Positions 6,145 to 30,761 of a stretch of 42,969 nt of DNA are shown one piece after another. The position numbers were made by a program, and so were the translations under genes. The stretch spans positions 1 to 42,969 of the forward strand of contig JAMPEU010000022.1 in the NCBI GenBank assembly GCA_023664865.1, in the 5' to 3' direction. Every line of letters starts with the position of its first letter. The stretch's first letter is position 1. This stretch comes from Butyrivibrio sp. (lineage in GTDB: Bacteria; Bacillota; Clostridia; Lachnospirales; Lachnospiraceae). The notes under the pieces are model-generated. The model searched no databases and was not told the origin of the DNA. It worked only from the letters and a program-made list of their open reading frames with translations.

Positions 6145-6197
6145 ATCCAAGGTGCATGAAGATTTTAATTAGAAGAAAAGACAAACAGCTCAACACG

Positions 6198-6268
6198 AAC
6201 AACATGGACGCATATGTTTCTTTTGCGGCACACTCTCGTTCCATGAAAACATATGCGTTCATGCTGCT
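6198..6268. repeat. Palindromic repeat, copy F (truncated)
   Basis: Left arm ATGGACGCATATGTTT pairs with right arm AAACATATGCGTTCAT. Between them lies CACTCTCGTTCCATGAAAA, which matches one end of the conserved core seen in the full copies (minus orientation). The centre of the core is missing. It begins 9 bp beyond the stop codon of the ABC permease gene, between convergent genes. Confidence 0.7.
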
Positions 6269-6277
6269 TGTCATTTT

Positions 6278-7498
6278 CTACCTTCCCGAAACCTGAAATC
6301 GTTCGTACACAGGTTTTCCAATAGCCGCAATTACCACACATAAAACAAAATAGATTATCGGCACAGCCTGCCACGGAGTCAGATGATGGCTGAATATGGA
6401 AAGCGTATAACAGCCGAACACATTCCACACCGAAAGAAAGTTCCACGGAGACCATCTCCATATCTGTGCTAACACGCGGTACTGCAGCGGAACGCTATAT
6501 ATCATAGGGCTAATCAATAACACAGTCGAAACCGACAGTGCAGCGATATTACTATGCAGCATTTCTGAGAGAACCATCACAAATATACTTATCAAAACCG
6601 CAGTAACTATCATATTCAAATATTCAATTATTGTTGCCTGCCCGCAGGTAATGGGATCCGAATTATCAACGTATATCAGTTGAAAAAACGCATTAAAACC
6701 GGCTGCCCCATATATACATAATATAATAACATATGTGATTAAATAAAAAATAGTGCTTGTTATTATTGCAAAACTGATGCCTGCCGCTATCTTAGCCGGA
6801 TATAGCTTCGCTTTTCCCAAAGGGCTGCTTAAGATTAGCTGGTCTGTTTTTCTTGTATGCTCGTCTGCAAAAATTCCCGATAAGCATATTGTAATCAACA
6901 ATAATTCAAACATGCTGACTGTTTGAAAATATCCATTTCCCATTATTATATTAGAGCCTTCATATTCTTGAAAAATATAGGGAGTTTTTATCTGTGCTTC
7001 CCGTTTTTGCCAAAACTCCTTTTCTCCTTCCGACAACCGATAATCTTCCCACACTGACGCCAGATGTATCTGCCTTTTAGCATACAAATCTTCTTCGCTT
7101 GGCTCCCATGAATACATCATTTCCAATGTCTGCATACCTGTGGTTTTGCGTATAAAATTAAATATCTCACTATACGGACGCGCATATTTCCAGTATTCAT
7201 CAGTTGATGTATAATGCTTATCCAGCGTCTCAGGAATTTTTCTATAGCCGGCTATTGTTTCTTCTATCAGGCTTTGGTCTATTGCCCTGCCGCTCAAGGC
7301 TTCTTCATAATGCTTGTTATTTTTATATAAATTATAATTTGTATCTAGCAGTATTTCGTCTACATAATAGTTGCCATACATTTGTATAAACGGCGGAAAT
7401 ATAGTAGTCCCTAAGCAGAAAAAGAAGAAAATCCAGACTATCTTTTTGCTTAAAAGCTTTTTCCACTCGTAGCGGTACATAACTCCGAAATTATTCAT
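6278..7498 (-). CDS. ABC-2 type transporter permease
   Basis: A 406-residue integral membrane protein. One transmembrane segment near residues 20-40 is followed by a long extracytoplasmic region (about 40-190), then five or so hydrophobic helices in the C-terminal half. This is the ABC-2 exporter layout. A cytoplasmic DEHTRKTDQLILSSPLGK segment near residue 215 matches the family motif. It follows the ATPase directly; its ribosome site lies inside the last ATPase codons, suggesting translational coupling. Substrate is unknown; a peptide, lipid or antibiotic exporter linked to cell-envelope stress is inferred from the sigma factor at the head of the operon. Confidence 0.8.
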   Translation of the reverse strand: MNNFGVMYRYEWKKLLSKKIVWIFFFFCLGTTIFPPFIQMYGNYYVDEILLDTNYNLYKNNKHYEEALSGRAIDQSLIEETIAGYRKIPETLDKHYTSTDEYWKYARPYSEIFNFIRKTTGMQTLEMMYSWEPSEEDLYAKRQIHLASVWEDYRLSEGEKEFWQKREAQIKTPYIFQEYEGSNIIMGNGYFQTVSMFELLLITICLSGIFADEHTRKTDQLILSSPLGKAKLYPAKIAAGISFAIITSTIFYLITYVIILCIYGAAGFNAFFQLIYVDNSDPITCGQATIIEYLNMIVTAVLISIFVMVLSEMLHSNIAALSVSTVLLISPMIYSVPLQYRVLAQIWRWSPWNFLSVWNVFGCYTLSIFSHHLTPWQAVPIIYFVLCVVIAAIGKPVYERFQVSGR

Positions 7499-7499
7499 A

Positions 7500-8219
7500 T
7501 TAATGACTATGCTCCTTTCCCTTGACTTGCTCGCCGATATGCTTTAGATAAAAATCCTCCAAATCGCCTTTGTCATCACTCCACTTATCCTGATAAATAA
7601 GCCGTCCTTCTTTCATTATCAACACCGTGTCCGCAATATGCTCAACGTCCGATACGATATGCGTGGACAAAAGCACAATGCTCTCTTTGCCAAGCTCCTC
7701 TATCATATTGCGGAAACGCACTCTTTCTTTTGGATCAAGCCCCGCCGTCGGCTCATCTAACACAAGGAGTTTAGGCTTACCAATAAGCGCCTGCGCTATT
7801 CCTAACCGCTGTTTCATGCCGCCGGAATATGTTTTGATTTTCTTTTTTGCCACGTCCTGCAGGGACGTAAGCTCTAAAAGTTCCGCCGCCCTTTTCTTCG
7901 CCTGCGGTTTTTCAATCCCCTTAAGAGCCGCCATATATATAAGAAAATCCTGCCCCGTAAACTCCGGATAGTACCCAAAATCCTGCGGCAGATAACCGAG
8001 CATGGAACGATAGCCTTCTTCTTTTACGTCAATTCCATCAAATGAGACTGCACCCTCTGTCGGCTTCAAAATACCGCAAATAATTCTCATGAGCGTTGTT
8101 TTGCCCGCGCCGTTTTCACCCAACAGCCCATGTACTCCCTTTTGAAATTTCACGCAGATATTGTCAACCACTGTTTTGTTTTTATACTGTTTCGTCACTC
8201 TGTCAATTATAAGTTCCAT
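7500..8219 (-). CDS. ABC transporter ATP-binding protein
   Basis: A 239-residue ATPase. Walker A is LLGENGAGKTTLM, the Q-loop GYLPQDFG, the signature YSGGMKQRLGIAQ, Walker B KLLVLDEPTAGLD and the H-loop LLSTH. It energises the permease encoded next. Its start overlaps the end of the preceding membrane-protein gene by 13 bp, so the operon is tightly coupled. Close relatives sit behind sigma factors in many Clostridia. Confidence 0.93.
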   Translation of the reverse strand: MELIIDRVTKQYKNKTVVDNICVKFQKGVHGLLGENGAGKTTLMRIICGILKPTEGAVSFDGIDVKEEGYRSMLGYLPQDFGYYPEFTGQDFLIYMAALKGIEKPQAKKRAAELLELTSLQDVAKKKIKTYSGGMKQRLGIAQALIGKPKLLVLDEPTAGLDPKERVRFRNMIEELGKESIVLLSTHIVSDVEHIADTVLIMKEGRLIYQDKWSDDKGDLEDFYLKHIGEQVKGKEHSH

Positions 8220-8980
8220 GCCAATTCCTCCGTCTGTTTTACTGTACGATAGGTTTCATATATCATTCCGAGCGTTAATAATAAGGCAAAAATAAGCCAC
8301 CATTTCAAATAATAAAACTGATATATATAATCAGGCTTAGTACATAGCACGATATTCGCGCCGCTGACCATCACTGCCGCGCTCATACAGGCATAAATAA
8401 CTTCCCTGCCGTGAAAATGGCGTGTAATCCACAGGCTGATATTGACAGTCAGCAGATACGGCGTCAAAATATAAACCCCCGTCTGAATAAGCGACAGACT
8501 GCTGTTCATATAGCACAGCGGTACAAAACAACAAAGAATAAAAGCATCGAGCAGCCCTAAAACGCTCATTCTTGCAAGCATTATGCTTTTTAGGGAAAAG
8601 CGCGCAGCCATTTCAAATTCGTCCATGCCATATGTTGTCGAGCGTTTGCTTTCGGCAACAGCCAAAATCGCAAGAAACGGAATAAACGCCGATATAAGCC
8701 ATAAGTCGCCTGTTCTAATGCTATTTGCGCCGTTTAGTGTAGGGAGCATATTGGCGTCTTTTAGCACTGAGAGCATATTAGCGCCGTACAATGCAGGAAA
8801 TAATAGAAGTATTGATAAAAATAACGTCCGTTTTCTTATATATGATGCCTGTATCAGAATAAATTTCCACATGCTGATAGTTGGCTGCGGAAGCGTTTTT
8901 AAAAGTTCTTCCTTTTTCCGATAATCAGGTTTTGGCGCTTCAAACGCCGTTTTAATCATCTTCTTTAAGTGACTCTTCAT
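8207..8980 (-). CDS. Membrane protein of the ECF sigma/ABC operon (possible anti-sigma role)
   Basis: A 257-residue protein: a basic cytoplasmic N-terminus of about 45 residues (MKSHLKKMIKTAFEAP) followed by about six hydrophobic helices. Its position directly after an ECF sigma factor and before the ABC genes suggests it may anchor or inhibit the sigma factor, or act as part of the exporter; neither is shown by sequence. The start has an AGGAGAGG site. That start region is the last of three imperfect 35-bp tandem repeats. Confidence 0.65.
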   Translation of the reverse strand: MKSHLKKMIKTAFEAPKPDYRKKEELLKTLPQPTISMWKFILIQASYIRKRTLFLSILLLFPALYGANMLSVLKDANMLPTLNGANSIRTGDLWLISAFIPFLAILAVAESKRSTTYGMDEFEMAARFSLKSIMLARMSVLGLLDAFILCCFVPLCYMNSSLSLIQTGVYILTPYLLTVNISLWITRHFHGREVIYACMSAAVMVSGANIVLCTKPDYIYQFYYLKWWLIFALLLTLGMIYETYRTVKQTEELAWNL

Positions 8981-9070
8981 TCAAATAACCTCTCCTTTCT
9001 TAACCGACTCTTTATTCAGACAACCTCCCCTTCTTTATCTGTCTCTTCACCCAGATATGCCTTCCTTCCC
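8971..9070. repeat. Three imperfect ~35-bp tandem repeats spanning the sigma stop and the next start
   Basis: The units begin at about 8971, 9005 and 9041 (GACTCTTCATTCA, GACTCTTTATTCA, GTCTCTTCACCCA). The unit nearest the membrane-protein gene provides its ribosome site and ATG. The middle unit carries an equivalent AGGGGAGG site followed by ATA instead of ATG. The third unit contains the sigma stop codon. Confidence 0.65.
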
Positions 9071-9508
9071 TAACTCTTCCTTTAACCTCTTCACAGCTTT
9101 CTGCAGCCTACGGTAGACGCTGAACCGCGATATTCCTAAAGTTTTACATATCAAAGCAACGGAGACTTCATTCACATATCGCAAGAATAACAATTCCTGT
9201 TCTTCCTTCGGCAGTCTTCCCATTGCGGATTTCACAGCCAGATTATTCACCCACTCGCCAGATATATCAACGCCTGCCGTTTCTTCAATATCTTTTATGT
9301 CATCAAACGGTTTCTTACGAAACTCGTCCACACACAAATTCTTAGCAATCGTATATAAATACGCTGTCTCCCTGCCGTTATCAAGGGATAAACCCCGTCC
9401 GTAAAAGCGAAGAAAGGTTTCCTGTGTGATATCCTGTGCCAGTTGCACATCACGCAGCTTAAAATAGCAATATCGGTATATCTTGTCGTATTGTTCTGCA
9501 ATATCCAT
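9047..9508 (-). CDS. ECF-type RNA polymerase sigma factor
   Basis: A 153-residue group 4 sigma factor. Region 2 covers about residues 6-60 (YRYCYFKLRDVQLAQDITQE). Region 4 covers about 95-150 with the DNA-recognition helix ALICKTLGISRFSVYRRL. It would direct RNA polymerase to a small regulon that probably includes its own operon. It heads the operon sigma, membrane protein, ABC ATPase, ABC permease. The ribosome site GGGAG is twelve bases before the ATG, rather far. Confidence 0.9.
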   Translation of the reverse strand: MDIAEQYDKIYRYCYFKLRDVQLAQDITQETFLRFYGRGLSLDNGRETAYLYTIAKNLCVDEFRKKPFDDIKDIEETAGVDISGEWVNNLAVKSAMGRLPKEEQELLFLRYVNEVSVALICKTLGISRFSVYRRLQKAVKRLKEELGKEGISG

Positions 9509-9593
9509 GCGCTGTGAAATCTCCCTTTATAATGTTTAACGGATAAAAACCGTAAAATGTGCGGGTTATTTTTATTTTTCCCTAAAAAAACAG

Positions 9594-9770
9594 CAGTTCA
9601 GCGTAAGCGGCATGGAGTAATATGCCTGCTCATGAGATCCTTGGAAAACGCCGGTAGTTAGTGAAAAAGCTGCTTTTAAGCTTTTGAACTTAGTACCGCT
9701 GCGATTTTCCACGGAGTGAGAGCGTACCTCATGAGCAGGCATATGAGTCCATGCCGCTTGCGCTGAACTG
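9594..9770. repeat. Palindromic repeat, copy A (177 bp, core on + strand)
   Basis: Outer arms from GTTCAGCG to CGCTGAAC pair over about 40 bp. The core (ACGCCGGTAGTTAGTGAAAA and ACTTAGTACCGCTGCGATTT) matches copies B-E. Read on the minus strand the palindrome is followed by GCTGTTTTTTTA, so it can serve as an intrinsic terminator for the RsiV-like gene 62 bp upstream. The rest of the 324-bp gap 9509-9832 is the AT-rich leader of the sigma gene with a small ACGG/CCGT hairpin. Confidence 0.85.
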
Positions 9771-9832
9771 TTACAATAGATAACGGCGAAATGGTTTCTG
9801 CCAAGTCGCCGCCGTTTTCTTACTATATATCC

Positions 9833-10849
9833 CTACTTCCTTATATCCTTCACCACTTCTTCCGGTATCACGAACTCCACAGTTCCCATATACATTGGCG
9901 CGACATCTCCTTCGTTGAACCCTATTACCAAATTGCCGTCTGCATTCAGATAGAAAGAAGTTTCATCCGTAATGGATTTAAAGTTCCATTCGTCAATATC
10001 ATCATGCAGCCAGTAAATCACATTCTCGTCCGCATCCATCTGCGCCTGCATCTGTTCCTTAATGTTCTCGCTGATTGGCGTAATATAGTCCGCGCCTTCT
10101 TTAAAAACATCTTTTAGCTTCAAGCGTTCACCTGTGGTTAAATCAATAGTATAAAAATAATTCCATTCATACCCGCTTCCCGCCCCCTGATAGCAGATAA
10201 GCTTTAGCGTAAAATATTCGTCAGTTGTCGCCAAAACCTCGCTATTTACATAAATGTCCTGATAGCCCTGTTCGTTTTTCATATTTTCTTCAAACTCTTC
10301 TATCAGCTTATCAGTAATCTCCTGTATCTCTGCATTTATCTCTTCCGTTGTACGCTCCAGCTTTTCCAGCACATCATTATCTTGTATCTGTACGCTGTCC
10401 TGCATCTGTCCGTTACCCTGTATCTGCCCGCTCTCCTGCGCCTGAGAGCTTTCCGTCTGCCCTTCCGCTATCGTTTCCGGCGCCTTTATCTCAGGGACTT
10501 TTACATTCGCCATATTCCTGTCCGTTTCATACTGATAATCACGGAATGTTACCACCTCAACAAGCTGCCCGATAATCGGTATCTTCTCCATCGCATTTGC
10601 AACCGATGCGGATGTATTGGGCAGAATTATGAAAACCCCCGCTATCATTGCCGCCGTTGCCGCAAATTTTATGATTTTGATATTCCTGCGCTCATTTCTT
10701 TCCGCCCTGTCCGCTTCCTTCATCTTAGCACGCAGTTTTTCCAACTGTTCCTGCGACATTTTTGGCTTCATATATTCTTCTTTAAGCAGCCCTAAGACTT
10801 CCTCAACCGAATCGCCCTGCCTGTCAATCTTAGTAAAATCTCTAATCAT
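9833..10849 (-). CDS. RsiV-like anti-sigma factor with DUF3298 domain
   Basis: A 338-residue single-pass membrane protein. The cytoplasmic N-terminal region (1-58) should bind the sigma factor. A transmembrane helix follows at about 60-80 (IIKFAATAAMIAGVFIILP), then a Gln-rich linker with short repeats (SGQIQG, NGQMQD, SVQIQD) near residues 130-155. The C-terminal DUF3298-type domain contains YFTLKLICYQGAGSGYEWNY and LVIGFNEGDVAPMYMG. In Bacillus, RsiV binds lysozyme and is cleaved to release SigV; the same role is inferred. It begins 5 bp after the sigma stop codon. Confidence 0.82.
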   Translation of the reverse strand: MIRDFTKIDRQGDSVEEVLGLLKEEYMKPKMSQEQLEKLRAKMKEADRAERNERRNIKIIKFAATAAMIAGVFIILPNTSASVANAMEKIPIIGQLVEVVTFRDYQYETDRNMANVKVPEIKAPETIAEGQTESSQAQESGQIQGNGQMQDSVQIQDNDVLEKLERTTEEINAEIQEITDKLIEEFEENMKNEQGYQDIYVNSEVLATTDEYFTLKLICYQGAGSGYEWNYFYTIDLTTGERLKLKDVFKEGADYITPISENIKEQMQAQMDADENVIYWLHDDIDEWNFKSITDETSFYLNADGNLVIGFNEGDVAPMYMGTVEFVIPEEVVKDIRK

Positions 10850-10854
10850 GCGCT

Positions 10855-11394
10855 CTACCCCTTTCCCTTTACTTTCTCTGCGTCTGCATTATCCGAAAGA
10901 ATATCTTTCAGCTTTTTGATGCTGCGGTACAGCCTGCTTTTAACCGTACTGACATTTTCATCAAGAATTACTGCAATCTCTTCCAGTTTCTTTTCTTCAA
11001 AATACTTCATAATAATTACAACCCTGTCTTTATCCTGAAGTGCGCCAAGCGCCCTCTGTAAGTCTATATCTGCATAATAATCCTCGGTATATTCTGTCTT
11101 TGCTTCGTTTTCTTCCTGAAGTTTCTCGTAGGAAACCTGTTCGGGACGTTTCAGATATTGAAAACATTCATTCAGCATAATGCGGTATACCCAGCTCTTG
11201 GCATATTCAGGTTCCTTTAGGGCATTAGCGCTCCTAATCGCCTTATATGCGCCGTTTTGCACGATATCGCCCGCGTCCGCCTCACTCTTGGTATAGCTGT
11301 AAGCGAGCCTATAGTATTGATTATAATTTTCTAAAATGATATTTTCGATTAAAGCTTTATTTGCTGCATTCTTTTTTCCGGAAGATAAATGCAC
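10855..11394 (-). CDS. ECF-type RNA polymerase sigma factor, SigV-like
   Basis: A 179-residue group 4 sigma factor. Region 2 includes NQYYRLAYSYTKSEADAGDI and the AKSWVYRIMLNECF segment. Region 4 is RVVIIMKYFEEKKLEEIA followed by a helix-turn-helix, VSTVKSRLYRSIKKL. It is paired with an RsiV-like anti-sigma gene, so cell-envelope stress (lysozyme) response is likely. The start is taken as GTG at 11394 because a GGGAGG site lies eight bases upstream; the GTG three codons earlier overlaps that site. An ECF-type promoter lies about 35 bp upstream. Confidence 0.88.
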   Translation of the reverse strand: MHLSSGKKNAANKALIENIILENYNQYYRLAYSYTKSEADAGDIVQNGAYKAIRSANALKEPEYAKSWVYRIMLNECFQYLKRPEQVSYEKLQEENEAKTEYTEDYYADIDLQRALGALQDKDRVVIIMKYFEEKKLEEIAVILDENVSTVKSRLYRSIKKLKDILSDNADAEKVKGKG

Positions 11395-11427
11395 GTTATC
11401 CACCTCCCTTATGGCGTTCTATAATAT

Positions 11428-11455
11428 TAGATGTTTGCCAAATATAAAAAGTTTC
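11428..11455 (-). promoter_or_regulatory. Candidate ECF-type promoter of the SigV-like operon
   Basis: On the minus strand GAAACT, a 16-bp spacer beginning with TTTT, and CATCTA. This resembles the AAC/CGTC pattern of Bacillus ECF promoters and aligns without gaps with the element at 13079-13106, so autoregulation is likely. Confidence 0.5.
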
Positions 11456-11494
11456 ATTTATAATTTTAAAAGTTCCTATTCACAATCTTTAAAA

Positions 11495-11641
11495 GGCATG
11501 AACTCATATACTTCCGCTTGAGGTACGCTCTCGCTCCGTGTAAAATCGCAGCGGTACTAAGCTCAAAAGCTAAAAAGCAGCTTTTTCACTAAGCACCGGC
11601 GTTTTACAAGGACCTCAAGTGGAAGTATATGAGTTCATGCC
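11495..11641. repeat. Palindromic repeat, copy B (147 bp, core on - strand)
   Basis: Arms GGCATGAACTCATATACTTC and GAAGTATATGAGTTCATGCC are perfect complements. The core matches the other copies in inverted orientation. It lies 37 bp after the stop of the anti-sigma-like gene at 11679 and is followed on the minus strand by TTTTAAAG. Confidence 0.85.
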
Positions 11642-11678
11642 ATATAAAAACTATGATGCAATTTCGATTATAAACCGC

Positions 11679-12578
11679 TTAGTGCTCGCCTCCTGCACTG
11701 GTATGCAGAATGCTGCCATCTATCGCGTCAATCGTACATGTGTAGCCGGAACGGTCAACCGGATTGCCAAAACCTATGATATAGGCAATGTCATTATCAT
11801 GCGCATAAGCTGTCTGTCCTGATATATCATATGGCCTTACCGCTATTGTGCCGTCGTTATATCTCAATAGTTCTTTTCCTTCTGCCTTGTCTCCAAGTTC
11901 CAGTTCCATTTGCGCCTGCGCAATTTCTATTGCTTCTTCCGCACTGATTCCGCCTGATTCCTGAATGATTTTATTAAGCTGCTCTTCTTCCATTTCCATT
12001 TCTGCCCTTGCTTCCATAGCCGCCGGACTCTGCTCAACAGCATACTTCATTTTATGCTGGAGGTCAATGATTTCCAGAAGTTCCTCGTCTGTCATTTCCC
12101 GCTCCGGCAGATAAAAATCCCCGGTAACATTCACATAGCAAAGTTCTCCTTCTATTACTGCATCTATGCTGTCCACCTGAATAATTTCTTTTTCCGGGAA
12201 GGTTCCGTTCTCATAAGCCTGCCACAACTCATGGCTGCGCTCTTCTTCATTCTCGGAATACACCCTGGAAAAGCCGTCCGCTACTGCATCCTGTGCTCTT
12301 ATCATGTCCAATGTCTCCTGAACTTTCTCCTTAGGTATGCTCTCCATTCTCGCCTTTACAAAGCTGCTTACCATCGCCTGTGCTGGAGATGGCAGCAAAA
12401 TACTGATAATGCCTATTGCAAGTACAAAAGATGCCGCCGCTGCCGCTATTTTCTTTATATTCCACGCCTTTTTCTTTCCGTGTTTCATCTGTTTTTTAAC
12501 ATTCATAATAATCTCCTCCTGCATTTTAGGTGAAATATGTATCTGCTCCATTACTTCTTTTAACTCTAAACCGTCCAT
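11679..12578 (-). CDS. Membrane-anchored protein paired with an ECF sigma factor (probable anti-sigma)
   Basis: A 299-residue protein. The N-terminal cytoplasmic part (1-43, MDGLELKEVMEQIHISPKMQ) is followed by one hydrophobic helix at about 44-65 and a long extracytoplasmic domain. The latter has an acidic Met/Glu-rich helix (AEMEMEEEQLNKII) and a C-terminal segment, IIGFGNPVDRSGYTCTIDAI, that resembles PepSY-type repeats. It starts 2 bp after the sigma stop codon, with the ribosome site inside the sigma gene. Anti-sigma function is inferred from topology and position; no ligand can be named. Confidence 0.7.
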   Translation of the reverse strand: MDGLELKEVMEQIHISPKMQEEIIMNVKKQMKHGKKKAWNIKKIAAAAASFVLAIGIISILLPSPAQAMVSSFVKARMESIPKEKVQETLDMIRAQDAVADGFSRVYSENEEERSHELWQAYENGTFPEKEIIQVDSIDAVIEGELCYVNVTGDFYLPEREMTDEELLEIIDLQHKMKYAVEQSPAAMEARAEMEMEEEQLNKIIQESGGISAEEAIEIAQAQMELELGDKAEGKELLRYNDGTIAVRPYDISGQTAYAHDNDIAYIIGFGNPVDRSGYTCTIDAIDGSILHTSAGGEH

Positions 12579-12580
12579 TG

Positions 12581-13057
12581 CTATATGCCTCCTTCCATAT
12601 TAACCGCTTCCCTCATTTGTTTTCTTCCCCGCCAAAGCCTTGTCTTTACCGCGCTTTCCGTGATTCCCAGAATATCCGCAATCTCTTTGGCTTGATAACC
12701 TTCGATATAATGCAGATAAAGCACTGTTTTCTGCTTAACGGGCAGTTCGAGAAGTTCTTCCAATATTTCTTTTTGTTCCGGCGCCACAAGGTCGTTCTCC
12801 ACCTCGTCAATATAAACCTTCGGATGCCGCACTCTGAAACGCATCATGTCACGGCAGATGTTCGTCGCCACCTTAATAAGCCACGCTTTCTTATGCTCCT
12901 TATCGCGAAACTTCGGTTTCTTTTCCAGATATCTGCAAAATGTATCCTGAATAGCGTCCTGAACGTCCTGTTCATTACACAGTATAACGATACATACTCT
13001 ATAAAGTACGTCGCTGTATTCCATGACCGCTTCTCTTATGTCCTTCTCCATATCCAT
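12581..13057 (-). CDS. ECF-type RNA polymerase sigma factor
   Basis: A 158-residue group 4 sigma factor. Region 2 contains DVLYRVCIVILCNEQDVQDA and the IQDTFCRYLEK segment; region 4 contains VLYLHYIEGYQAKEIADILG and ESAVKTRLWRGRKQMRE. The start at 13057 is set by AGGAGG eight bases before an ATG; a second ATG two codons later is possible. This is the third ECF factor within 4 kb, and an ECF-type promoter lies immediately upstream. Confidence 0.9.
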   Translation of the reverse strand: MDMEKDIREAVMEYSDVLYRVCIVILCNEQDVQDAIQDTFCRYLEKKPKFRDKEHKKAWLIKVATNICRDMMRFRVRHPKVYIDEVENDLVAPEQKEILEELLELPVKQKTVLYLHYIEGYQAKEIADILGITESAVKTRLWRGRKQMREAVNMEGGI

Positions 13058-13078
13058 GCCCCTCACCTCCTTTATTAC

Positions 13079-13106
13079 TACACGTTTGAAAAGAGTAAAA
13101 GGTTAC
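13079..13106 (-). promoter_or_regulatory. Candidate ECF-type promoter of the third sigma operon
   Basis: On the minus strand GTAACC, a 16-bp spacer with TTTT at its start and CAAA at its end, and CGTGTA. It has the same layout as the promoter at 11428-11455. Confidence 0.5.
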
Positions 13107-13137
13107 TTTCTTTTTCAAAATAATTTTAGCATAAAAT

Positions 13138-13284
13138 GGCAGAGACACATATGCCCACTGGAAAGGTCCTTGAAAAACGCCGGTACTTAGTGAAAAAGAC
13201 GCAAAACGGCTTTTGAACTTAGTACCGCTGCGATTTTTCACGGAGCGAGAGCGTGCCTTTCCAGTGAGCATATGTGTCTCTGTC
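13138..13284. repeat. Palindromic repeat, copy C (147 bp, core on + strand)
   Basis: Arms around CAGAGACACATATG and CATATGTGTCTCTG pair within this copy but differ in sequence from the arms of other copies. The core (CGCCGGTACTTAGTGAAAAA, GAACTTAGTACCGCTGCGAT) is conserved. It lies 23 bp after the gltD stop codon. Confidence 0.85.
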
Positions 13285-13307
13285 GTCTGTAATCTGCACT
13301 TATAAAA

Positions 13308-21564: not shown

Positions 21565-21571
21565 TAAGTAA

Positions 21572-21668
21572 ACTTGCTAGGGGAGCACATCGCTGAGATT
21601 GAAATATGCCCGCATATTTCTAACCCTCACTACCTGAACCGGATAATACCGGCGGAGGGAAGCAAAGC
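21572..21668 (+). ncRNA. TPP (thiamine pyrophosphate) riboswitch aptamer
   Basis: The conserved THI-box segments are all present: GGGGAGC, GCTGAGA, AACCCT, ACCTGAACCGGATAATACCG and GCGGAGGGA. The P1 helix closes with CTTGCT and AGCAAAG. The optional P3 hairpin is GAAATATGC/GCATATTTC. Binding of TPP should switch off thiT downstream. Confidence 0.96.
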
Positions 21669-21715
21669 CTTGATATAGATAGCTTATGTTATCTATATTT
21701 GGGGTTTGATGCTGT

Positions 21716-21746
21716 TCCTCCTCGCACAAACGAAGGAGGTTTTTTT
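21716..21746 (+). terminator. Riboswitch expression platform: hairpin that ends in the thiT ribosome site
   Basis: CCTCCT (21717-21722) pairs with AGGAGG (21734-21739) and is followed directly by seven T residues and the ATG. The 3' arm is the Shine-Dalgarno sequence itself, so the same stem could terminate transcription and also block translation. A second stem, ATATAGATA/TATCTATAT, lies at about 21672-21697. Confidence 0.8.
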
Positions 21747-22439
21747 ATGTCACTATTTATCAATCAGGAAGATGGCTATTATTCATTAACGGGCGCAGGC
21801 ACAATAACTTTCGTCGTAATCATCTTCATTCTAATCGCACTTATCGCATTCTTAAGGAATACGAAAGCCGATACCGAATCAGTACAAGCTAAAATATTTT
21901 CTACCAAACAGCTTGTCTTTTCTGCAGTTGCGCTTGCACTCGGCTTTGCCACATCCTATATCAAAATCATTGATATGCCGTGGGGCGGCTCGGTAACGCT
22001 CTGTTCCATGCTCTTTGTCACTCTGATAGGCTACTGGTATGGACCAAAAATCGGTTTAATCGCGGGATTTGCATACGGCATACTGCAATTTATCCAGGGC
22101 GGCGGAGGCTATATACTTTCACCGCTGCAAGCATGTCTGGACTACATAGTTGCCTTTGCGGCTCTTGGGTTGTCCGGTCTTTTCTATAAAAAGGAACATG
22201 GTCTGCTTAAAGGCTATCTTTTTGCCATCTTTATGCGGGGATTATTCCATTCTATCGGCGGATATCTGTACTGGATGGACTATATGCCGGATAATTTCCC
22301 TAAATCCTTAACAGCGATATATCCGATTGCATATAATTATGCGTATATTCTTGCAGAAGGCGTGCTAACAGTTGTTATTTTATCATTGCCGCCTGTAATA
22401 AACGCTATGTCTAATGTAAAGAAGATAGCTACAGAATAA
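21747..22439 (+). CDS. thiT: Thiamine ECF transporter S component
   Basis: A 230-residue membrane protein with about six hydrophobic helices. It has the ThiT signature region MPWGGSVTLCSMLFVTLIGY and conserved aromatic residues in the C-terminal GGYLYWMDYMP segment that line the thiamine site. It captures thiamine and works with the shared energising EcfAAT module encoded elsewhere. The start is fixed by AGGAGG seven bases before the ATG at 21747. TPP riboswitch control agrees with the assignment. The short ORF extension upstream runs through the riboswitch and is not coding. Confidence 0.95.
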   Translation: MSLFINQEDGYYSLTGAGTITFVVIIFILIALIAFLRNTKADTESVQAKIFSTKQLVFSAVALALGFATSYIKIIDMPWGGSVTLCSMLFVTLIGYWYGPKIGLIAGFAYGILQFIQGGGGYILSPLQACLDYIVAFAALGLSGLFYKKEHGLLKGYLFAIFMRGLFHSIGGYLYWMDYMPDNFPKSLTAIYPIAYNYAYILAEGVLTVVILSLPPVINAMSNVKKIATE

Positions 22440-23156: not shown

Positions 23157-23295
23157 GCGGTATGGACTCACATAATTTCTCTTGAGGTCCTTGGAAAACG
23201 CCGGTACTTAGCGAGGTTTTTTCGAGCTTAGTACCGCTGCGATTTTTCATGGAGCAAGAGCGTGCCTCAAGAGAAATTATGTGAGTCCATACCGC
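23157..23295. repeat. Palindromic repeat, copy D (139 bp, core on + strand)
   Basis: Arms GCGGTATGGACTCACATAAT and ATTATGTGAGTCCATACCGC are perfect complements. The core matches copies A-C and E, with a shorter apical loop (GCGAGGTTTTTTCGAG). It lies 36 bp after the stop codon of the DUF308 gene. Confidence 0.85.
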
Positions 23296-23922: not shown

Positions 23923-23933
23923 AACTAATCCTC

Positions 23934-24033
23934 CATTCCTACTATACATTAAATAATTTATTCTTACTATACATTAAATAATCTATTCTCCCTATGCATT
24001 AAACAATCCATTCTTATTATATATTAAACAATC
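23934..24033. repeat. Four 25-bp tandem repeats between the dehydrogenase and DUF308 genes
   Basis: On the minus strand the unit is GATT(G/A)TTTAAT followed by (A/G)YATAG(T/G)(A/G)(A/G)GAAT(A/G). Four copies run from the end of the dehydrogenase gene to the ribosome site of the DUF308 gene; the terminal copy passes into GGAATGGAGG, which supplies that site. Confidence 0.75.
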
Positions 24034-25007
24034 TCCCATTTATTCTCTTTTCCTTCCATGAAAAGCTTACAACTAATCAGCGAATCCCTTACCACAGTCT
24101 CCACGCAATTATCGGTATAAAAAGCCATGTGGTGTGAGACGGTCACATTGGGGAAACCTCGCAGGATTGCCAATTCCCTGTTATTTAATATATCAGATTT
24201 ATGGTCGTAATAGTATAATCCGAACTCATTTTCTACAACGTCCAGGCCTGCCGCCCCGATTTTGCCGGACTCAACCGCACTGATAAGCGCCTGCGAATCT
24301 ATCAGCGCGCCCCTTGCCGTGTTAATTATAACTACGCCGTCTTTCATTACGGCTATGCTCTTTTCATTAATCAGATGATAATTATCATCAGTAAGCGGCG
24401 TATGCAGCGTAATCACATCAGCCTCTTTAAAAAGCTGCTCAAGCGGCACATACTCTGCATATTGCTTTACCTCGTCCTGCTCATATATATCATATGCAAT
24501 TATTTTGCAGCCAAAACCCGACAGATTACGAATTACAGTCTTTCCTATCCTTCCGGTTCCTATAACTCCTACGGTTAAATCTTTCAACTCTCTCCCCTGT
24601 ATCCCGGCAAGAGTATAGTCCTGTATATTAGTGCGCTCCATTATTCTTTTCATCTTCCGTATAGACATAAGAATCAGCATAACCGTATAATCTGCAACTC
24701 CATGCGGTCCATAAGGCGCATTTCCGACCTTGATGCCGAATTCCCTCGCTGCGTCTATATCTATATGGTCGTACCCAATCGTCCTTGTAATCAGATATTT
24801 CACTCCGTTTTCATGAAACGCCGCCATCAACTCTCTTGTTATTTTAGATGTGATAATATCCACACACTCGCTGTCTTTAGTCAACTCCACATTTTCTAAC
24901 GAAGGAGGCTGCGCACACAGATTAAGTTCCAACCCTAACTCCTTCGCATAACGGATAAACAGTTCCTTTTCATCAAATTCCCTGCAATTATATACAGTAA
25001 CCTTCAT
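24024..25007 (-). CDS. D-2-hydroxyacid dehydrogenase (D-lactate dehydrogenase-like)
   Basis: A 327-residue NAD-dependent enzyme that interconverts a 2-keto acid such as pyruvate and the D-2-hydroxy acid. The dinucleotide motif GVIGTGRIGKTVIRN is near residue 147. Catalytic residues are seen in INTARGALID (Arg), GLDVVENEFG (Glu) and VSHHMAFYT (His). The N-terminal MKVTVYNCREFDEKELF matches fermentative D-LDH enzymes. The start is taken at 25007; GAAAGGAG lies 13 bases upstream, an unusually long spacing that recurs in this window. It follows the YtvI-like gene by 25 bp. Confidence 0.88.
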   Translation of the reverse strand: MKVTVYNCREFDEKELFIRYAKELGLELNLCAQPPSLENVELTKDSECVDIITSKITRELMAAFHENGVKYLITRTIGYDHIDIDAAREFGIKVGNAPYGPHGVADYTVMLILMSIRKMKRIMERTNIQDYTLAGIQGRELKDLTVGVIGTGRIGKTVIRNLSGFGCKIIAYDIYEQDEVKQYAEYVPLEQLFKEADVITLHTPLTDDNYHLINEKSIAVMKDGVVIINTARGALIDSQALISAVESGKIGAAGLDVVENEFGLYYYDHKSDILNNRELAILRGFPNVTVSHHMAFYTDNCVETVVRDSLISCKLFMEGKENKWEIV

Positions 25008-25032
25008 GTCAATAACCATGCTCCTTTCCACA

Positions 25033-26238
25033 TTACTCCTTCTTCTGCATTTCCTTCTGGTAAGAATCCTTCATCTCTTTCTCATACTCATTTACCATCT
25101 GCTTATCCTGATTATTCAGCCGCCTGAATCTGTTAAACCCTGAATATAGAATCCTTAAACTCTCTTTAGTCGTATCGAACACGCCCTCCTGATACAGATT
25201 AATAAATATTATGCCAATCGGCAGCACGAAAATCATACCCAGCACGCCCGCCACCTTATAACCGATATAAAGAAGAAACAGGGTTGGAATCGGCTTAATG
25301 CCTATGGAATCACCCATAATCTTAGGCTGTATGAGCTGGCGTACAAGCTGGCTTACACCCCATATGATTAAAAGCCCTATCGTCATTTTATATTCGCTGC
25401 CTAAAAGGGCAATTACCGCCCACGGAAACATTACGGTGCCTGTTCCGAAAACCGGCAGCAAATCCAGAAAGGCAATGCCAAATGCAATTAAAAAGGCGTA
25501 ATTCACATTTAAAATCATCAGCCCGATAAACACAATAATATATACCCAGACCTCTATCTTAAACTGCGCCTTGAAATAACCTCCAATTGCATTCTGAAAG
25601 CTTCCGCGTATAAGCTCATATTTATATGAAATCGAAGCGGGCATATTCTTTTTAATAAATTCGGACAGCGAAGCCTTATTTGCAACAAAGAAATAAGAAG
25701 ATAACAATGTCATGATAATTGCCATAAATACGTCAGGCAGCCGCTTCGCGATATTACCTACCGCGGTAAACGTAGGCGTTCCGATATCACCGATAAACTG
25801 TGAAAAAAATTCTTCCAGTCTATTGCCTATGAGAACCAGTCTTTCCTGTATATCTGCCGGCAAGCGTTTATAAAATACATTCAGCTTATCCCCTATCTGA
25901 TTAAATTCAAGTTCCAGCTTATGCCATAAATCAGGCAGCCCGTTGACAAAGCCTATCGCCTCATTAACAAGCTTGGCAGATATGCCATATACGAGCAGCA
26001 CGACGCACGCCAGAACTGCAATAATCACAAACACAGACACAGCCTTGCGCTTAATCTTTAATTTTTCCTCAAGAAATCTTGCTAAAGGAGCGGCAATCAG
26101 CGAAATAATCCAGCCTATAACAAAAGGCATAAAAAACATAATTGCACGCGGCAGCAAAAAGATGCACAGCAAAAGCACGACCAGCGCGGTAACGATATTC
26201 AGGACAGCTTTTATATATGTTATAACTTCAGGTTTCAT
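25033..26238 (-). CDS. AI-2E family transporter, sporulation protein YtvI-like
   Basis: A 401-residue membrane protein with about seven or eight hydrophobic helices. The central soluble stretch (about 95-150, DLWHKLELEFNQIGDKLNVF) and the C-terminal helices with ALLGSEYKMTIGLLIIWGVS fit the AI-2E transporter family. In spore formers, YtvI members are sporulation-associated. The transported substrate is unknown. The charged C-terminal tail (EKEMKDSYQKEMQKKE) is cytoplasmic. The start at 26238 has AGGAGG ten bases upstream; a longer ORF to 26328 runs into the ysxC end and is not needed. Confidence 0.82.
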   Translation of the reverse strand: MKPEVITYIKAVLNIVTALVVLLLCIFLLPRAIMFFMPFVIGWIISLIAAPLARFLEEKLKIKRKAVSVFVIIAVLACVVLLVYGISAKLVNEAIGFVNGLPDLWHKLELEFNQIGDKLNVFYKRLPADIQERLVLIGNRLEEFFSQFIGDIGTPTFTAVGNIAKRLPDVFMAIIMTLLSSYFFVANKASLSEFIKKNMPASISYKYELIRGSFQNAIGGYFKAQFKIEVWVYIIVFIGLMILNVNYAFLIAFGIAFLDLLPVFGTGTVMFPWAVIALLGSEYKMTIGLLIIWGVSQLVRQLIQPKIMGDSIGIKPIPTLFLLYIGYKVAGVLGMIFVLPIGIIFINLYQEGVFDTTKESLRILYSGFNRFRRLNNQDKQMVNEYEKEMKDSYQKEMQKKE

Positions 26239-26324
26239 AAGCAGGCATCCTCCTTCGTTAAGCAATCTCAAAGTTCTATTATGACTAAACCCATAACAGC
26301 AAATGCAGGGTTCACAATTAACTG

Positions 26325-26912
26325 TCAACCCTCGTGTAATTTGTCAATAAGTTCGTAAATTTCTTCCCTTCCCTGCTTGGTAAGCGACGAATACGGTATT
26401 ATTACAGTGTCTTCTTCCAGATTAAGGGTATCACGGATAACCGCCAGATGCTTATCCACCTGGCTTTTCTTAATCTTATCGAGTTTTGTTGCAATTATCA
26501 CAGGCTTATGCCCCCTCCCAACAATCCAATCATACATAATGCAGTCATTTTCGGATGGGGCATGTCTTATGTCAACCAAAAGGAAGACCGCCTTTATCTT
26601 TTTCGACTGATAAAGATAATCTTCAATCATCTTCCCCCACTGAGCCTTAACTTTGACATTGGCGGTCGCATATCCGTATCCCGGCAAATCTACGAAATAC
26701 ATCTCATTATTTATGTTATAGTAATTTATCGTCTGCGTTTTGCCGGGTTTGGAACTTGTTCTTGCTAAAGACTTACGATTCATAAGCCCATTTATCAACG
26801 ATGACTTGCCTACATTGCTTTTCCCCGAAAAAGCAATCTCCATCAGCTTGTTATCCGGTATTTTGCTTGTAATCCCACAAACAATCTCCAAATTTACGCT
26901 CCTTATTACCAT
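26325..26912 (-). CDS. ysxC: Ribosome biogenesis GTPase YsxC/EngB
   Basis: A 195-residue GTPase needed for large ribosomal subunit assembly. G1 is FSGKSNVGKSSLI, the G2 region is KPGKTQTINYY, G3 is DLPGYGYA, G4 is TKLDK, and a G5-type segment is PYSSLTKQG. The length is normal. AGGAG lies seven bases before the ATG. It follows clpX, the common Firmicute order (lon is absent here). Confidence 0.95.
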   Translation of the reverse strand: MVIRSVNLEIVCGITSKIPDNKLMEIAFSGKSNVGKSSLINGLMNRKSLARTSSKPGKTQTINYYNINNEMYFVDLPGYGYATANVKVKAQWGKMIEDYLYQSKKIKAVFLLVDIRHAPSENDCIMYDWIVGRGHKPVIIATKLDKIKKSQVDKHLAVIRDTLNLEEDTVIIPYSSLTKQGREEIYELIDKLHEG

Positions 26913-26953
26913 AAGAATGCTCCTTTCCCGACATTTTCCATGCTTTTATACCC

Positions 26954-26987
26954 AAAACGCCGCCTGAATCTTCTCAAACGGCGTTTT
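26954..26987. terminator. Hairpin after clpX
   Basis: AAAACGCCG pairs with CGGCGTTTT around a 16-base loop, 5 bp after the clpX stop codon. The minus-strand side ends in TTTT, making it a weak intrinsic terminator or a partial attenuator before ysxC. Confidence 0.55.
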
Positions 26988-26991
26988 AATT

Positions 26992-28251
26992 CTATTCTGC
27001 CTGCAGCAGTCTGTTTCTATAGTGAACAAGCGGTCCGCTTTTTCCCTCTACTGAATCCTTGGTAACGACACATTCCGAAATATTATCGTCGGAAGGAATC
27101 TCGTACATAATATCCATCATGACATTTTCCATGATGGAGCGGAGCCCTCTTGCCCCCGTCTTTCTTTCAACGGCAAGTTCCGCGATTTTCTCAATGGCGT
27201 CGTCCTCGACCTTCAAATTGACTTCGTCAAACTCGAATAGTTTCTTATACTGTTTAATAAGCGCATTCTTAGGCTCGACCAGTATTTTGATAAGCGCGTC
27301 TTTATCAAGCCCCTCAAGCGTTACCGTAATCGGTACACGTCCGATAAATTCAGGAATAAGACCAAACTTCATCAAATCCTGCGGCGCGGCTTCTTTTAAA
27401 ATCGCGCCTATATCCTTAGTGCTTTTTTCAACAATCTCGGCGTTGAAACCGATGGAATTTCTATCCAGACGCTCTTCGACAATCTTCTCCAGACCATCAA
27501 ATGCGCCACCGCATATAAACAGGATATTGGAAGTGTCAATCTGTATAAGTTCCTGATGCGGGTGCTTTCTCCCACCCTGCGGCGGAACGCTCGCCACCGT
27601 TCCTTCGATAATCTTTAACAGCGCCTGCTGCACGCCTTCGCCGGAAACATCCCTTGTTATCGAAACGTTTTCGCTTTTCTTAGTAATCTTATCAATTTCA
27701 TCAATATAAATTATGCCAAACCTCGCGCGCTCAATATCATAATCGGCTGCCTGTATAAGCTTAAGCAGGATATTTTCAACATCTTCACCCACATATCCGG
27801 CCTCAGTAAGCGTCGTAGCGTCGGCAATCGCAAAAGGGACATTGATAATCTTGGCAAGGGTCTGCGCAAGGTATGTCTTGCCTGAACCCGTAGGCCCTAT
27901 CATGATTATATTGCTTTTCTGCAGTTCCACTCCGTCGTCGTCCGGCGGCGCCATTACCCTCTTATAATGATTGTATACGGAAACCGCAAGGACTTTTTTG
28001 GCTTCTTCCTGTCCTATAACGTAGTCGTCAAGAAATTTCTTTATTTCTGCCGGCTTTAACAGGTTAATATCCAGTTCTTCCACTATTTCCGGTTCGTCTT
28101 CATATTCTTCCTCTATGATATCGGCGCAGACGTCTACACACTCGTCACAGATATATACGCCGCCCGGTCCGGCTATCATTTTCCGAACCTGGTCCTGCGT
28201 CTTATTGCAAAAAGAACATCTAACTTTATTGTCAGAATTTTTTCCTGCCAT
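26992..28251 (-). CDS. clpX: ATP-dependent Clp protease ATP-binding subunit
   Basis: A 419-residue AAA+ unfoldase that feeds proteins to ClpP. The N-terminal zinc-binding domain has CSFCNKTQ and CDECVDVC. Walker A is [12 protein letters not shown]; Walker B is [10 protein letters not shown]. The ClpP-docking tripeptide region is [10 protein letters not shown] and the sensor-2 motif is [11 protein letters not shown]. It begins 17 bp after clpP. The length is normal. Confidence 0.97.
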
Positions 28252-28268
28252 TTTAATTGCCTTTCCTA

Positions 28269-28865
28269 TTATTTTGCCGCCTCGGCATGATTTGTGATAA
28301 TGCGGTCAATCAGACCATATTGAAGCGCTTCCTCGGCGGTCTTCCAGTTATCCCTCTCGGTATCCGCCATAACCACTTCGTAATCCTGACCTGTATTTTC
28401 CGCCATTATCCTTGCCATCTTCTCTTTAATGGCAAGAATATGTTTAGCAGTAATCTCAATCTCGGTTGCCTGTCCCTGAGCCCCGCCTGCCGGCTGATGA
28501 ATCATAACCTCGGCATTCGGAAGCGCCATTCTCTTGCCTTTAGCCCCACCCGCAAGCAAAAATGCGCCCATGCTTGCCGCCATGCCTATACATACTGTAG
28601 AGACGTCGCACTTAATGAACTGCATCGTGTCATAAATAGCCATGCCCGCGGTAATAGAGCCGCCCGGACTGTTGATATATAAGTGAATGTCTTTTTCAGG
28701 ATCCTCAGACTCCAAAAATAACAGCTGTGCCACTACCAAGCTTGCCGTAACATCGTTCACTTCTTCCCCTAAGAAAATAATTCTTTCTTTTAAAAGCCTT
28801 GAATAAATATCATATGAGCGTTCTCCCTTTGAAGTCTGCTCAATGACAACCGGTACTAATGACAT
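28269..28865 (-). CDS. clpP: ATP-dependent Clp protease proteolytic subunit
   Basis: A 198-residue serine protease that forms the double-ring degradation chamber. The catalytic Ser is in [14 protein letters not shown], the His in VMIHQPAGG and the Asp in DTERDNW. It lies between tig and clpX, 34 bp after tig. Confidence 0.97.
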
Positions 28866-28899
28866 AATAATCCCTCCATTTAATGTAAACGCCTATATA

Positions 28900-30186
28900 C
28901 TATTTTTCCTTAGCATTTTCCACTACAAAATCTACCGCTTTCTTCACAGCAAGGTCTTTTCTGATATTCTCCGCCTCTTTCTTGCTAAGCATCTCTTTAA
29001 CCTTTGCCGTTTCCATCTGGTAGACTTCCGCCATAGTCTTTATTTCTTCCTCGTATTCTTCGTCAGTTACTTCAATATTCTCCGCCGCAGCTACAGCCTC
29101 CATTACGAGCCTGGACTTTATTCTGGTTTCCGCCTGCGGTTTAACTTGCTCTAACATCTTCTCATAGCTGGTGCCTGTAAACTGGAAATATTGCTCCATA
29201 GGAATGCCCTGCATGGACATTCTCTGTGCAAACTCTTCTACCATCTGCCTTTGCTGTGTCTCTATCATAGCTTCCGGTATCTCCATTTCAGATGTCTCAA
29301 TAATAGCGTCAACGACCGCTTCTTCTTTTGCCGTCTTTGCTTCTTTTTCCTTCTTCTCAAGCAAGTCCTTCTTAATGTCTTCCTTATATTCAGCTAATGT
29401 ATCAAATTCAGATACTTCACTGGCAAATTCGTCGTCTATATCAGGAAGTTCCTTCTCCTTGATTTCCTTAACGGTACATTTGAAAACTGCTGCCTTGCCT
29501 TTCAACTTCTCTTCGTGGTACTCTTCGGGGAATGTGACATTTACGTCCACTTCTTTACCGATTTCCACTCCGATAAGCTGCTCTTCAAAGCCCGGAATGA
29601 ATGCGCCAGAACCGATTGTCAGCGGATAGTTTTCTCCTTTTCCGCCATCAAACGCCACTCCGTCAACAAAACCTTCAAAATCAATGACTGTGATATCACC
29701 GTCTTTTACCGGTCTGTCGTCTACGGAAATATTTCTCGCATTATTCTCGCGTTCTCTTTCAATAACCTCGTTTATGTCGTCGTCCGTAACTTCCACATCA
29801 ATTTTATCTACCTTAACGCCTTTGTATTTTCCTAATTTTACTTCCGGTTTCAAGGCAACCAACGCAGTAAAGATAAAAGGTTTTCCTTTTTCTATCTGAG
29901 TCACTTCTATCTTAGGTGAAGACACAATATCCTCTTCGCACTCGTCTAATGCCTTATCATAAGCCGTAGGAATCAGTTCATTCGCCGCATCCTCGTAAAA
30001 TACTTCTTTTCCATACATTCTCTCAACCAGCTGACGCGGCACTTTACCCTTTCTAAATCCCGGAATGCTTATTTTTCCTTTCTGTTTCTGATAAGCCGAA
30101 TCAATAGCTTTTTCCAGCTCTTCCGCGCTTGCCTCGATTGTCAGTTTTGCCATGTTCTTCTCTAATTTTTCCACCTGTAAACTCAT
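28900..30186 (-). CDS. tig: Trigger factor (ribosome-associated chaperone)
   Basis: A 428-residue peptidyl-prolyl isomerase and chaperone at the ribosome exit tunnel. The ribosome-binding signature is PGFRKGKVPR near residue 43. The FKBP-type domain (about 150-245) includes VDGVAFDGGKGENYPLTIGS and FIPGFEEQLIG. The C-terminal helical arms are charged. The start at 30186 has GGAGG ten bases upstream. A dedicated promoter with an extended -10 lies about 90 bp upstream. Confidence 0.96.
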   Translation of the reverse strand: MSLQVEKLEKNMAKLTIEASAEELEKAIDSAYQKQKGKISIPGFRKGKVPRQLVERMYGKEVFYEDAANELIPTAYDKALDECEEDIVSSPKIEVTQIEKGKPFIFTALVALKPEVKLGKYKGVKVDKIDVEVTDDDINEVIERERENNARNISVDDRPVKDGDITVIDFEGFVDGVAFDGGKGENYPLTIGSGAFIPGFEEQLIGVEIGKEVDVNVTFPEEYHEEKLKGKAAVFKCTVKEIKEKELPDIDDEFASEVSEFDTLAEYKEDIKKDLLEKKEKEAKTAKEEAVVDAIIETSEMEIPEAMIETQQRQMVEEFAQRMSMQGIPMEQYFQFTGTSYEKMLEQVKPQAETRIKSRLVMEAVAAAENIEVTDEEYEEEIKTMAEVYQMETAKVKEMLSKKEAENIRKDLAVKKAVDFVVENAKEK

Positions 30187-30274
30187 AAGTTGGTTTCCTC
30201 CTTCAATTACCTCTGCAACATATATCACTTATAATAGGAACATTTACGGAATGCCTAGTCACAGTCATTTTAAG

Positions 30275-30282
30275 ATTATAGC
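30275..30282 (-). promoter_or_regulatory. tig promoter (extended -10)
   Basis: On the minus strand TGCTATAAT forms an extended -10; the -35 region (TAGTAT) is poor. The site directly follows the stop codon of the TM1266-type gene. Confidence 0.55.
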
Positions 30283-30300
30283 ACAATCACTTGAAAAATA

Positions 30301-30555
30301 CTAGCATTTCTTTCCATAAATCACTTTTGAATTAATTCCCTTAAGCATACCCAATTTTCCGGACAAAGAACTTATCTTATCCTGCGGCGCATCCATCACG
30401 ATGCTGATGATATTTACCTTTTTCCTGCTATAAGGAATCCCCATTCTTCCGATTATATATTCAGAGTATTCATGCAGCATCCTGTTCAGTTTCTCCACTT
30501 CGTCTGTGTTTTCTACGATAATTCCGAGTAATGCGACTCTTGTTTCTGTGTCCAT
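30301..30555 (-). CDS. TM1266-type putative iron-only hydrogenase system regulator
   Basis: An 84-residue ACT/NikR-C-like protein starting MDTETRVALLGIIVEN, with the conserved MGIPYSRKKVNIISIVMDAP segment. It matches the TM1266 family (TIGR03959), often linked to [FeFe]-hydrogenase maturation genes; none is visible here. The start at 30555 has AAAGGAG ten bases upstream. An ORF extends further upstream through repeat copy E, but that part is not coding. Confidence 0.8.
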   Translation of the reverse strand: MDTETRVALLGIIVENTDEVEKLNRMLHEYSEYIIGRMGIPYSRKKVNIISIVMDAPQDKISSLSGKLGMLKGINSKVIYGKKC

Positions 30556-30603
30556 GTAAATTTTGCTCCTTTCAGATTGTGGGGGTAGTCTATAAGTTCC
30601 GTG

Positions 30604-30761
30604 ATGACGGCATAAACGCATATGTTCCATAGAAAGACACGCTCCCGCTCCGTGAAAAATCGCAGCGGTACTAAGTTCAAAAGCCATAAAACGGGCTTTT
30701 TCCCTAAGTATCGGCGTTTTTCAAGGGTCTTCCCATGGAACATATGCGTCTATGCCGTCAT
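30604..30761. repeat. Palindromic repeat, copy E (158 bp, core on - strand)
   Basis: Arms ATGACGGCATAAACGCATAT and ATATGCGTCTATGCCGTCAT are almost perfect complements (one G-T pair in this stretch). The core matches copies A-D in inverted orientation. The right arm overlaps the last four bases of the ABC permease-ATPase gene, including its stop codon. Confidence 0.85.

Follow-up and report, generated by a model that had tools for sequence, protein, structure and literature searches.

A stretch of 42,969 nucleotides (positions 1 to 42,969 of contig JAMPEU010000022.1) from a Butyrivibrio genome (assembly GCA_023664865.1, here G000), referred to below as the window, carries six copies, A to F, of a long palindromic element. 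Our results make it likely that these copies are non-autonomous insertion elements, similar to miniature inverted-repeat transposable elements (MITEs), that hold a conserved core probably acting as RNA. Related gut bacteria have the same core inside elements with different ends, and this suggests that evolution has preserved the folded core itself. Mobility was demonstrated in relatives, and we infer that the window's own family moves in like manner. The initial annotation of the window had named a miniature mobile element among the candidate identities; for the wider family this holds, given the terminal repeats, the target duplications (in genome G022 and, less cleanly, in G016 and G039) and the presence or absence of copies at orthologous sites.

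Window copies and the fold of their core

Five full copies (A–E) sharing a core lie where the initial annotation had placed them, B and E on the minus strand. Copy F had also been counted as core-bearing but is a stub, which keeps the outer arms and a small GNRA hairpin and has lost the CGCCGGTACTTAG...CTTAGTACCGCTGCG core hairpin. The copies are listed here with the state of each site in the relative G020.

9594..9770, + strand: copy A, complete element (arms and core); at the orthologous G020 site the core is absent and an arm stub is kept
9716..9723, + strand: two-base-pair hairpin of copy A with its GNRA loop (G-T-GAGA-G-C; the second pair is G-U here)
11480..11656, − strand: copy B, complete element; core absent and arm stub kept in G020
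13138..13284, + strand: copy C, complete element; core absent and arm stub kept in G020
23157..23295, + strand: copy D, complete, its core a short-loop variant; the G020 site is occupied by another copy, which differs in arms and loop
30595..30770, − strand: copy E, complete element; another hairpin, without the core, at the G020 site
6192..6273, − strand: copy F, deleted stub (33.5 bits), like the stub in G020

The core measures about 70–90 nt. It comprises the base of the arms and a long hairpin (CGYCGGTACTTAG...CTTAGTACCGCTRCG) whose bulges are fixed; one strand also has a small hairpin (GGAGCGNRAGCG) with a GNRA cap. The lower stem of the core hairpin is variable in sequence with its pairing maintained, and the small hairpin, GC-GNRA-GC, is found on the 3' side only. 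The fixed one-sided bulge described initially, GAGCGAGAGCGTG, is indeed present, but it includes the two-base-pair hairpin with its GNRA cap; the core word CGCCGGTACTTAG is likewise not invariant, as copy A reads CGCCGGTAGTTAG instead. As first described, the outer arms differ in sequence from copy to copy and are complementary within each (84–100% over 27–45 nt in copies A–E), and the inner stem shows compensatory change: GG/CC in A, GT/AC in B, GA/TC in C and E, and a G-T pair in D. Folded singly and compared with shuffled sequences, copy A reached −114.5 kcal/mol (z = −14.9) and copy D −86.5 kcal/mol (z = −13.3), with 0 of 200 shuffles as stable in either case.

A covariance model, the check proposed initially, was built from 36 copies (A–E and 31 others). 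It scored copies A–E at 160–185 bits on the strands given above and at only 45–71 bits on the opposite strand, indicating that the core has a strand. A script parsed 81 own-genome reads (from 117 alignment rows, 112 of them unique and opposite-strand readings included) and 45 reads of relatives found by the model; the loop of the small hairpin is GNRA in 80 and 42 of these, respectively. The exceptions are AAGA, once per set, and GAAG and AAAC, both of which may be parsing errors; at the named loci described below, the loops are GNRA partly through the search pattern. The small stem reads GC/GC in 65 of the 81 own-genome reads, AC/GT in 12, GT/AC in 2, GT/GC in 1 and AT/GT in 1. RNAalifold places this hairpin in another register than GC-GNRA-GC in the wider set, and its exact pairing is thus provisional.

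Copy number, ends and target duplications

In G000 (3.82 Mb, 180 contigs) at least 149 distinct places, part of them inspected singly, match the model: all 150 candidates that were scored did so, one being the opposite-strand reading of another. Matches, the weak ones checked in part, were obtained in 57 of 60 genomes of the window's genus, G000 included, and not in G007, G012 and G021. The core is visible by eye in 29 of 30 loci from 12 same-genus genomes, the thirtieth (L090) running off the end of its contig. Named species genomes, scanned with a pattern, gave at least 103 stretches, of which 80 loci were listed under the labels Lachnospiraceae (31), Clostridiales (16), Blautia (7), Muribaculaceae (7), Candidatus Fimimorpha (6), Butyrivibrio (5), "bacterium" (3), Eubacteriaceae (2), Clostridiaceae (1), [Clostridium] symbiosum (1) and Mogibacterium (1). 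The Muribaculaceae label is probably wrong, since its one assembly appears to be G016, which is listed in the window's own genus. No match was found in viral contigs, scanned with one exact pattern, or in plasmids and phages, queried with the 91-bp core of copy A, and carriage by phage, plasmid or virus was set aside on these queries.

The inner core is found under 35 genome labels, flanked by arms that are unrelated in sequence. Even within G000, two element families with differing arms have the core in common; five further hits (L291:6547-6700, L293:5054-5207, L303:8880-9030, L035:1217-1370 and L295:438-588) form the second family. It surrounds the core with arms of its own, and one end resembles, by eye, TAATTGCAAAACTC, a likeness shared by elements in the JAAUZU and JAIDHX assemblies. 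An origin of the arms by insertion into palindromes already present was set aside for G000, as the arms have a consensus across copies.

The case for mobility is clearest in G022. There the element is 189 bp long (one copy, 187 bp) with 18-bp terminal repeats, CAATGTCATTAAGTTAAG, and 13 of 19 terminal-repeat pairs are flanked by exact 10-bp target duplications and one by a 9-bp duplication (loci were read for 30 of 261 end matches). At least five end pairs lie 158 bp apart, and one such copy, L266, has lost one arm and retained a perfect 10-bp duplication. The same genome holds four full-length insertion sequences of the IS4 family, each about 1.7 kb long; they carry PF01609 transposases between ends with 0–2 mismatches to those of the hairpin element, and no recognizable core was found in them. 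In G016 and G039 the core stands behind other ends, CACGGAAATCAATTTTCAGTCA (≤4 mismatches allowed), with terminal repeats of at least 22 bp. Exact 9-bp duplications flank 2 of the 12 end pairs, which are 223–226 bp apart, and a few further 9-bp duplications with one mismatch are apparent by eye.

The window's own family is more worn. Its termini, TTACTATTCACAG, occur at 53 sites in 572 kb (≤2 mismatches), 37 of them within 260 bp of a core, and at site L289:18370 a 7-bp direct repeat, GACAAAA, flanks the element and is single in element-free G020. Several observations count against movement of this family. Both ends are kept (≤4 mismatches) in only 25 of 115 copies, and 9 of 115 reach ≤4 mismatches at one end after shuffling; an offset scan of the 115 copies for a target duplication gave nothing convincing, its best offsets probably reflecting inner symmetry. 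Neither of the two PF01609 hits in G000, nor the one in G020, lies between TTACTATTCACAG termini, and PF01609 has no match in G016 and G039. No driver of these families thus emerged from the PF01609 search.

A different driver, the Y1 transposase (RAYT) that moves repetitive extragenic palindromes (REPs) and their mosaics (BIMEs), would suit dispersed extragenic palindromes, and four neighboring inverted pairs in G000 do share a single arrangement. We nevertheless regard a REP/BIME identity as most improbable: the Y1 domain PF01797 has no match in G000, G020, G016, G039, G043, G059, G041 and G012, eight of the 14 genomes searched (the six others have hits), and the elements measure about 140–225 bp compared to 20–40 bp for REPs in the accessible text of PMC3733652.

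Turnover, gene context and covariation

Fifteen sites were compared between G000 and G020. Ten are without the core in G020 (window copies A, B, C and E; L289:6613, 12700, 14418 and 18370; L293:5054 and 10204), three have an altered or different core element, one is identical (L293:15833) and one, copy F, is deleted in both. Arm stubs left at A, B, C, L289:6613 and L293:5054 indicate deletion, while absence without a stub fits loss in G020 and gain in G000 alike, two genomes being compared, and to that extent does not speak for insertion. Different core elements occupy the sites of copy D and L289:4109 in G020, and at L293:6957 the outer arms are alike while inner stem and loop differ. At L289:4109 the left flank in G000 resembles the outer arm of the G020 element, so nesting may occur. 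The core-less hairpin at the copy E site (G020 C12, opposite window 30600-30764, in L122) possibly represents a further palindrome family.

The elements lie between genes. None of 115 G000 copies falls inside a gene called by a simple codon-score script; these are the copies with flanks, 34 of the 150 lacking usable flanks and one being a duplicate reading. Copies in the 82 co-directional spacers stand a median of 19 nt past the upstream stop codon and 108.5 nt before the downstream start, and the stop codon is the nearer of the two in 65 spacers (p = 9e-8); 14 other copies are convergent, 14 divergent, and 5 have one neighbor only. Elsewhere, none of the testable copies is inside a gene (10 in G022, 18 in G016/G039 and 67 at named loci, with 14 more at locus edges).

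Such placement past the stop codon, nearer the 3' end of the gene, is what host-encoded, immobile 3'-end elements (terminators or messenger stabilizers) would produce, and the 3'-end element of the initial annotation does agree with the position in G000, its function being only putative. Immobility, however, is difficult to reconcile with copies that are absent or different between two relatives, with the occurrence of both orientations, and with the target duplications in G022 and in some G016/G039 copies; nor is a T-run visible by eye at the ends, for which reason a terminator was set aside. We consider this explanation very unlikely.

The covariation analysis bears on the fold itself. The own-genome alignment of 36 copies has 36 of 54 pairs varying on both sides and 98.0% of cells paired, and 0 of 500 shuffles reached its covariation score. 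In the core alignment (47 sequences, 35 labels) 23 of 31 pairs vary on both sides and 92.7% of cells are paired, versus 75.6% when shuffled; again 0 of 500 shuffles reached the score. For both alignments this control ignores the relatedness of copies. Its 47 sequences derive from 50, at most two per label from 36 labels, after omission of one long-loop and two redundant sequences. The aligned windows span 83–104 nt and include six or seven arm bases per side, and eleven labels are genome handles, possibly the same as assemblies that also appear by name. The named assemblies were found with a core-derived pattern, which makes core invariance there partly a matter of choice; the relatives found by the model were chosen without the pattern.

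In a comparison of 55 nearest-neighbor pairs of G000 copies, both sides had changed in 75 arm pairs, versus 10.6 expected at random; 65 of the 75 went from Watson-Crick to Watson-Crick, and 84 other arm pairs differ on one side. The excess indicates that changes are coupled, though one-sided intermediates occur. Coupling can be due to compensatory selection or to template-directed correction of one arm by the other, both fitting alike; such arm correction is described for E. coli quasipalindromes in the accessible text of PMC7202029. The initial proposal that selection has kept a hairpin of about 150 nt is too strong for the outer arms, where one-sided G-T and A-C departures are not clearly unequal (41:25), the 158-bp derivative with one arm lost retains a perfect duplication of its target, and arm correction could give the same pattern.

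These data also bear on whether the elements are ordinary MITEs in which the core is a passive, functionless insert, alike through descent and gene conversion between copies. The apparent exchange of inner parts at L293:6957 and the loss of the core at 10 of 15 sites in G020 would both follow from that account. It explains less readily why the variable lower stem still pairs and why, with arms unrecognizable between genomes, the core remains readable in Blautia, Butyrivibrio, [Clostridium] symbiosum and Candidatus Fimimorpha assemblies. We judge it rather unlikely.

Whether the core is read as RNA is harder to establish. The structured RNA of the initial annotation has support in the inner core only, by its covariation across genome labels and its GNRA loop, and one pair shows the wobble expected of RNA (U-A 16, U-G 11, C-G 9, C-A none). 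The following results weigh against this part of our interpretation. The strand test, which kept 79 of 117 rows as forward readings, is weak: G-T:A-C departures are 41:25 in the outer arms (p = 0.06), 45:26 in the inner arms (p = 0.03), and 4:2 and 26:17 in the lower and upper core hairpin, neither significant, with 2:0 in the small hairpin. An earlier count with a looser filter gave 57:45 in outer arms and 82:38 in the rest of the G000 elements, and 64:47 and 104:60 in other genomes, while another pair, in the core, is C-A 27 times. Orientation relative to the upstream gene in G000 is antisense in 54 cases and sense in 28 (p = 0.005), contrary to what a function of sense RNA in the 3' untranslated region would predict. 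Outside G000 it is antisense in 34:21 over all, with no clear leaning at the named loci alone (24:15), and the stop codon is nearer in 4 of 6 (G022), 6 of 10 (G016/G039) and 22 of 39 (named) spacers, which is not significant.

Alternatively, the core could be a structured single-stranded DNA: an enzyme would read it in its folded DNA form, and its resemblance to RNA would be coincidental. Both attC sites and REPs are read in this manner. The not clearly unequal outer-arm departures and the antisense excess are compatible with it, and the MRSC-65-2 motif carries the same RNA-or-DNA doubt in the accessible text of PMC11109978. On the other hand, movement in G022 did not need both arms, as judged from the 158-bp copy with its perfect duplication, and PF01797 is absent from 8 of the 14 genomes, many-copy hosts included, other single-strand enzymes not having been searched for. 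We regard folded DNA as unlikely. On sequence evidence, a core that works as RNA when transcribed is the most likely reading, favored but unproven, with the GNRA loop leaning toward RNA over folded DNA and the strand test adding little.

Interpretation and relation to known elements

In the mechanism we propose for these MITE-like elements, a full-length insertion sequence would supply the transposase that recognizes the terminal inverted repeats in trans. Insertions would persist between genes, in G000 mostly just past a stop codon, while the long complementary arms would be free to diverge in sequence, their complementarity presumably being kept in part by template-directed correction. Copies would be lost through deletion within the palindrome, and inner parts would at times be swapped between copies, we infer by homologous recombination. 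When transcribed, the core would fold past the stop codon into a stable hairpin at the messenger 3' end, where a protein could bind it or an RNase process it. Such a hairpin might make the insertion tolerable to the host, a suggestion that we put forward tentatively and with some doubt.

A more speculative proposal is that selection acts on the core itself as its unit, the core being a selfish nucleic acid with a structure of its own that would have survived longer than several transposon families. It would pass between sets of terminal repeats through exchange between palindromes, and its fold, a GNRA-capped side hairpin beside a long stem, would be read by a host or transposon protein; we think this improbable, if worth stating. 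Hairpin-forming MITEs are known and are usually defined by their ends, whereas here elements with dissimilar ends and arms have the inner fold in common across genomes. The family thereby offers a test of whether the part of a mobile element that is conserved can be a folded RNA or DNA. Being present at least 149 times in one genome, mostly a short way past genes, the elements could shape messenger 3' ends in gut bacteria.

Several other features share the window. Homologues of sbcC and sbcD (PF13476/PF13558 and PF12320/PF00149) lie at 34665-39003 (−), in the same window as the six hairpin elements; the SbcC and SbcD nuclease subunits attack long hairpins in E. coli. Three sigma-70-like sigma factor genes occur within about 4 kb on the minus strand (9047-9508, 10855-11403 and 12581-13066), and a 25-bp AT-rich unit is repeated four times in tandem at 23935-24034. 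Two 40-nt direct repeats, 90% alike (3913-3952 and 5068-5107), stand upstream of an asnA-like gene (4027-5037) and a PD-(D/E)XK nuclease-family gene (5218-6144); each has TTGACA and an AT-rich stretch about 17 nt on, and they are possibly duplicated promoters. A thiamine pyrophosphate (TPP) riboswitch at 21569-21677 (+, 65.5 bits), just upstream of a thiamine transporter gene (21699-22439), is the sole Rfam match in the window.

At the window copies themselves no Rfam family exceeds its gathering score. Sub-threshold hits on copy A, L128 and L092 are best to microRNA-type and other generic hairpin models. Our literature search returned no description of the element, most subscription journals lying outside its coverage.

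Among known systems, the PF01609 insertion sequences of G022 have nearly the same 18-bp ends as the hairpin element of that genome; the hairpin element differs in having no transposase, and its core was not found in those sequences. By their overall form, the elements resemble NEMIS/Correia, ERIC and YPAL/RU-2, bacterial MITEs with hairpin transcripts: all are small, mostly intergenic and non-autonomous with inverted repeats, and the transcripts of the known ones fold as long hairpins (PMC2229807). YPAL targets span or adjoin dyad symmetry, and ERIC affects the stability of upstream messengers in an orientation-dependent manner (PMC2229807). These families differ from ours in their hosts and, as far as the accessible text of PMC2229807 extends, no core common to differently armed or ended elements is described for them. 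REP/RAYT systems are likewise many-copy extragenic palindromes (accessible text of PMC3733652), set apart by the length given above and by the lack of a Y1 match in our main host genomes. The MRSC-65-2 motif, compared by description only from the accessible text of PMC11109978, shares a long covarying stem and often dozens of copies per genome, and was judged selfish with its RNA or DNA form left open. It is a single long stem found in diverse phyla with a conserved UYCCGG repeat, whereas the present elements have a GNRA side hairpin and conserve different words.

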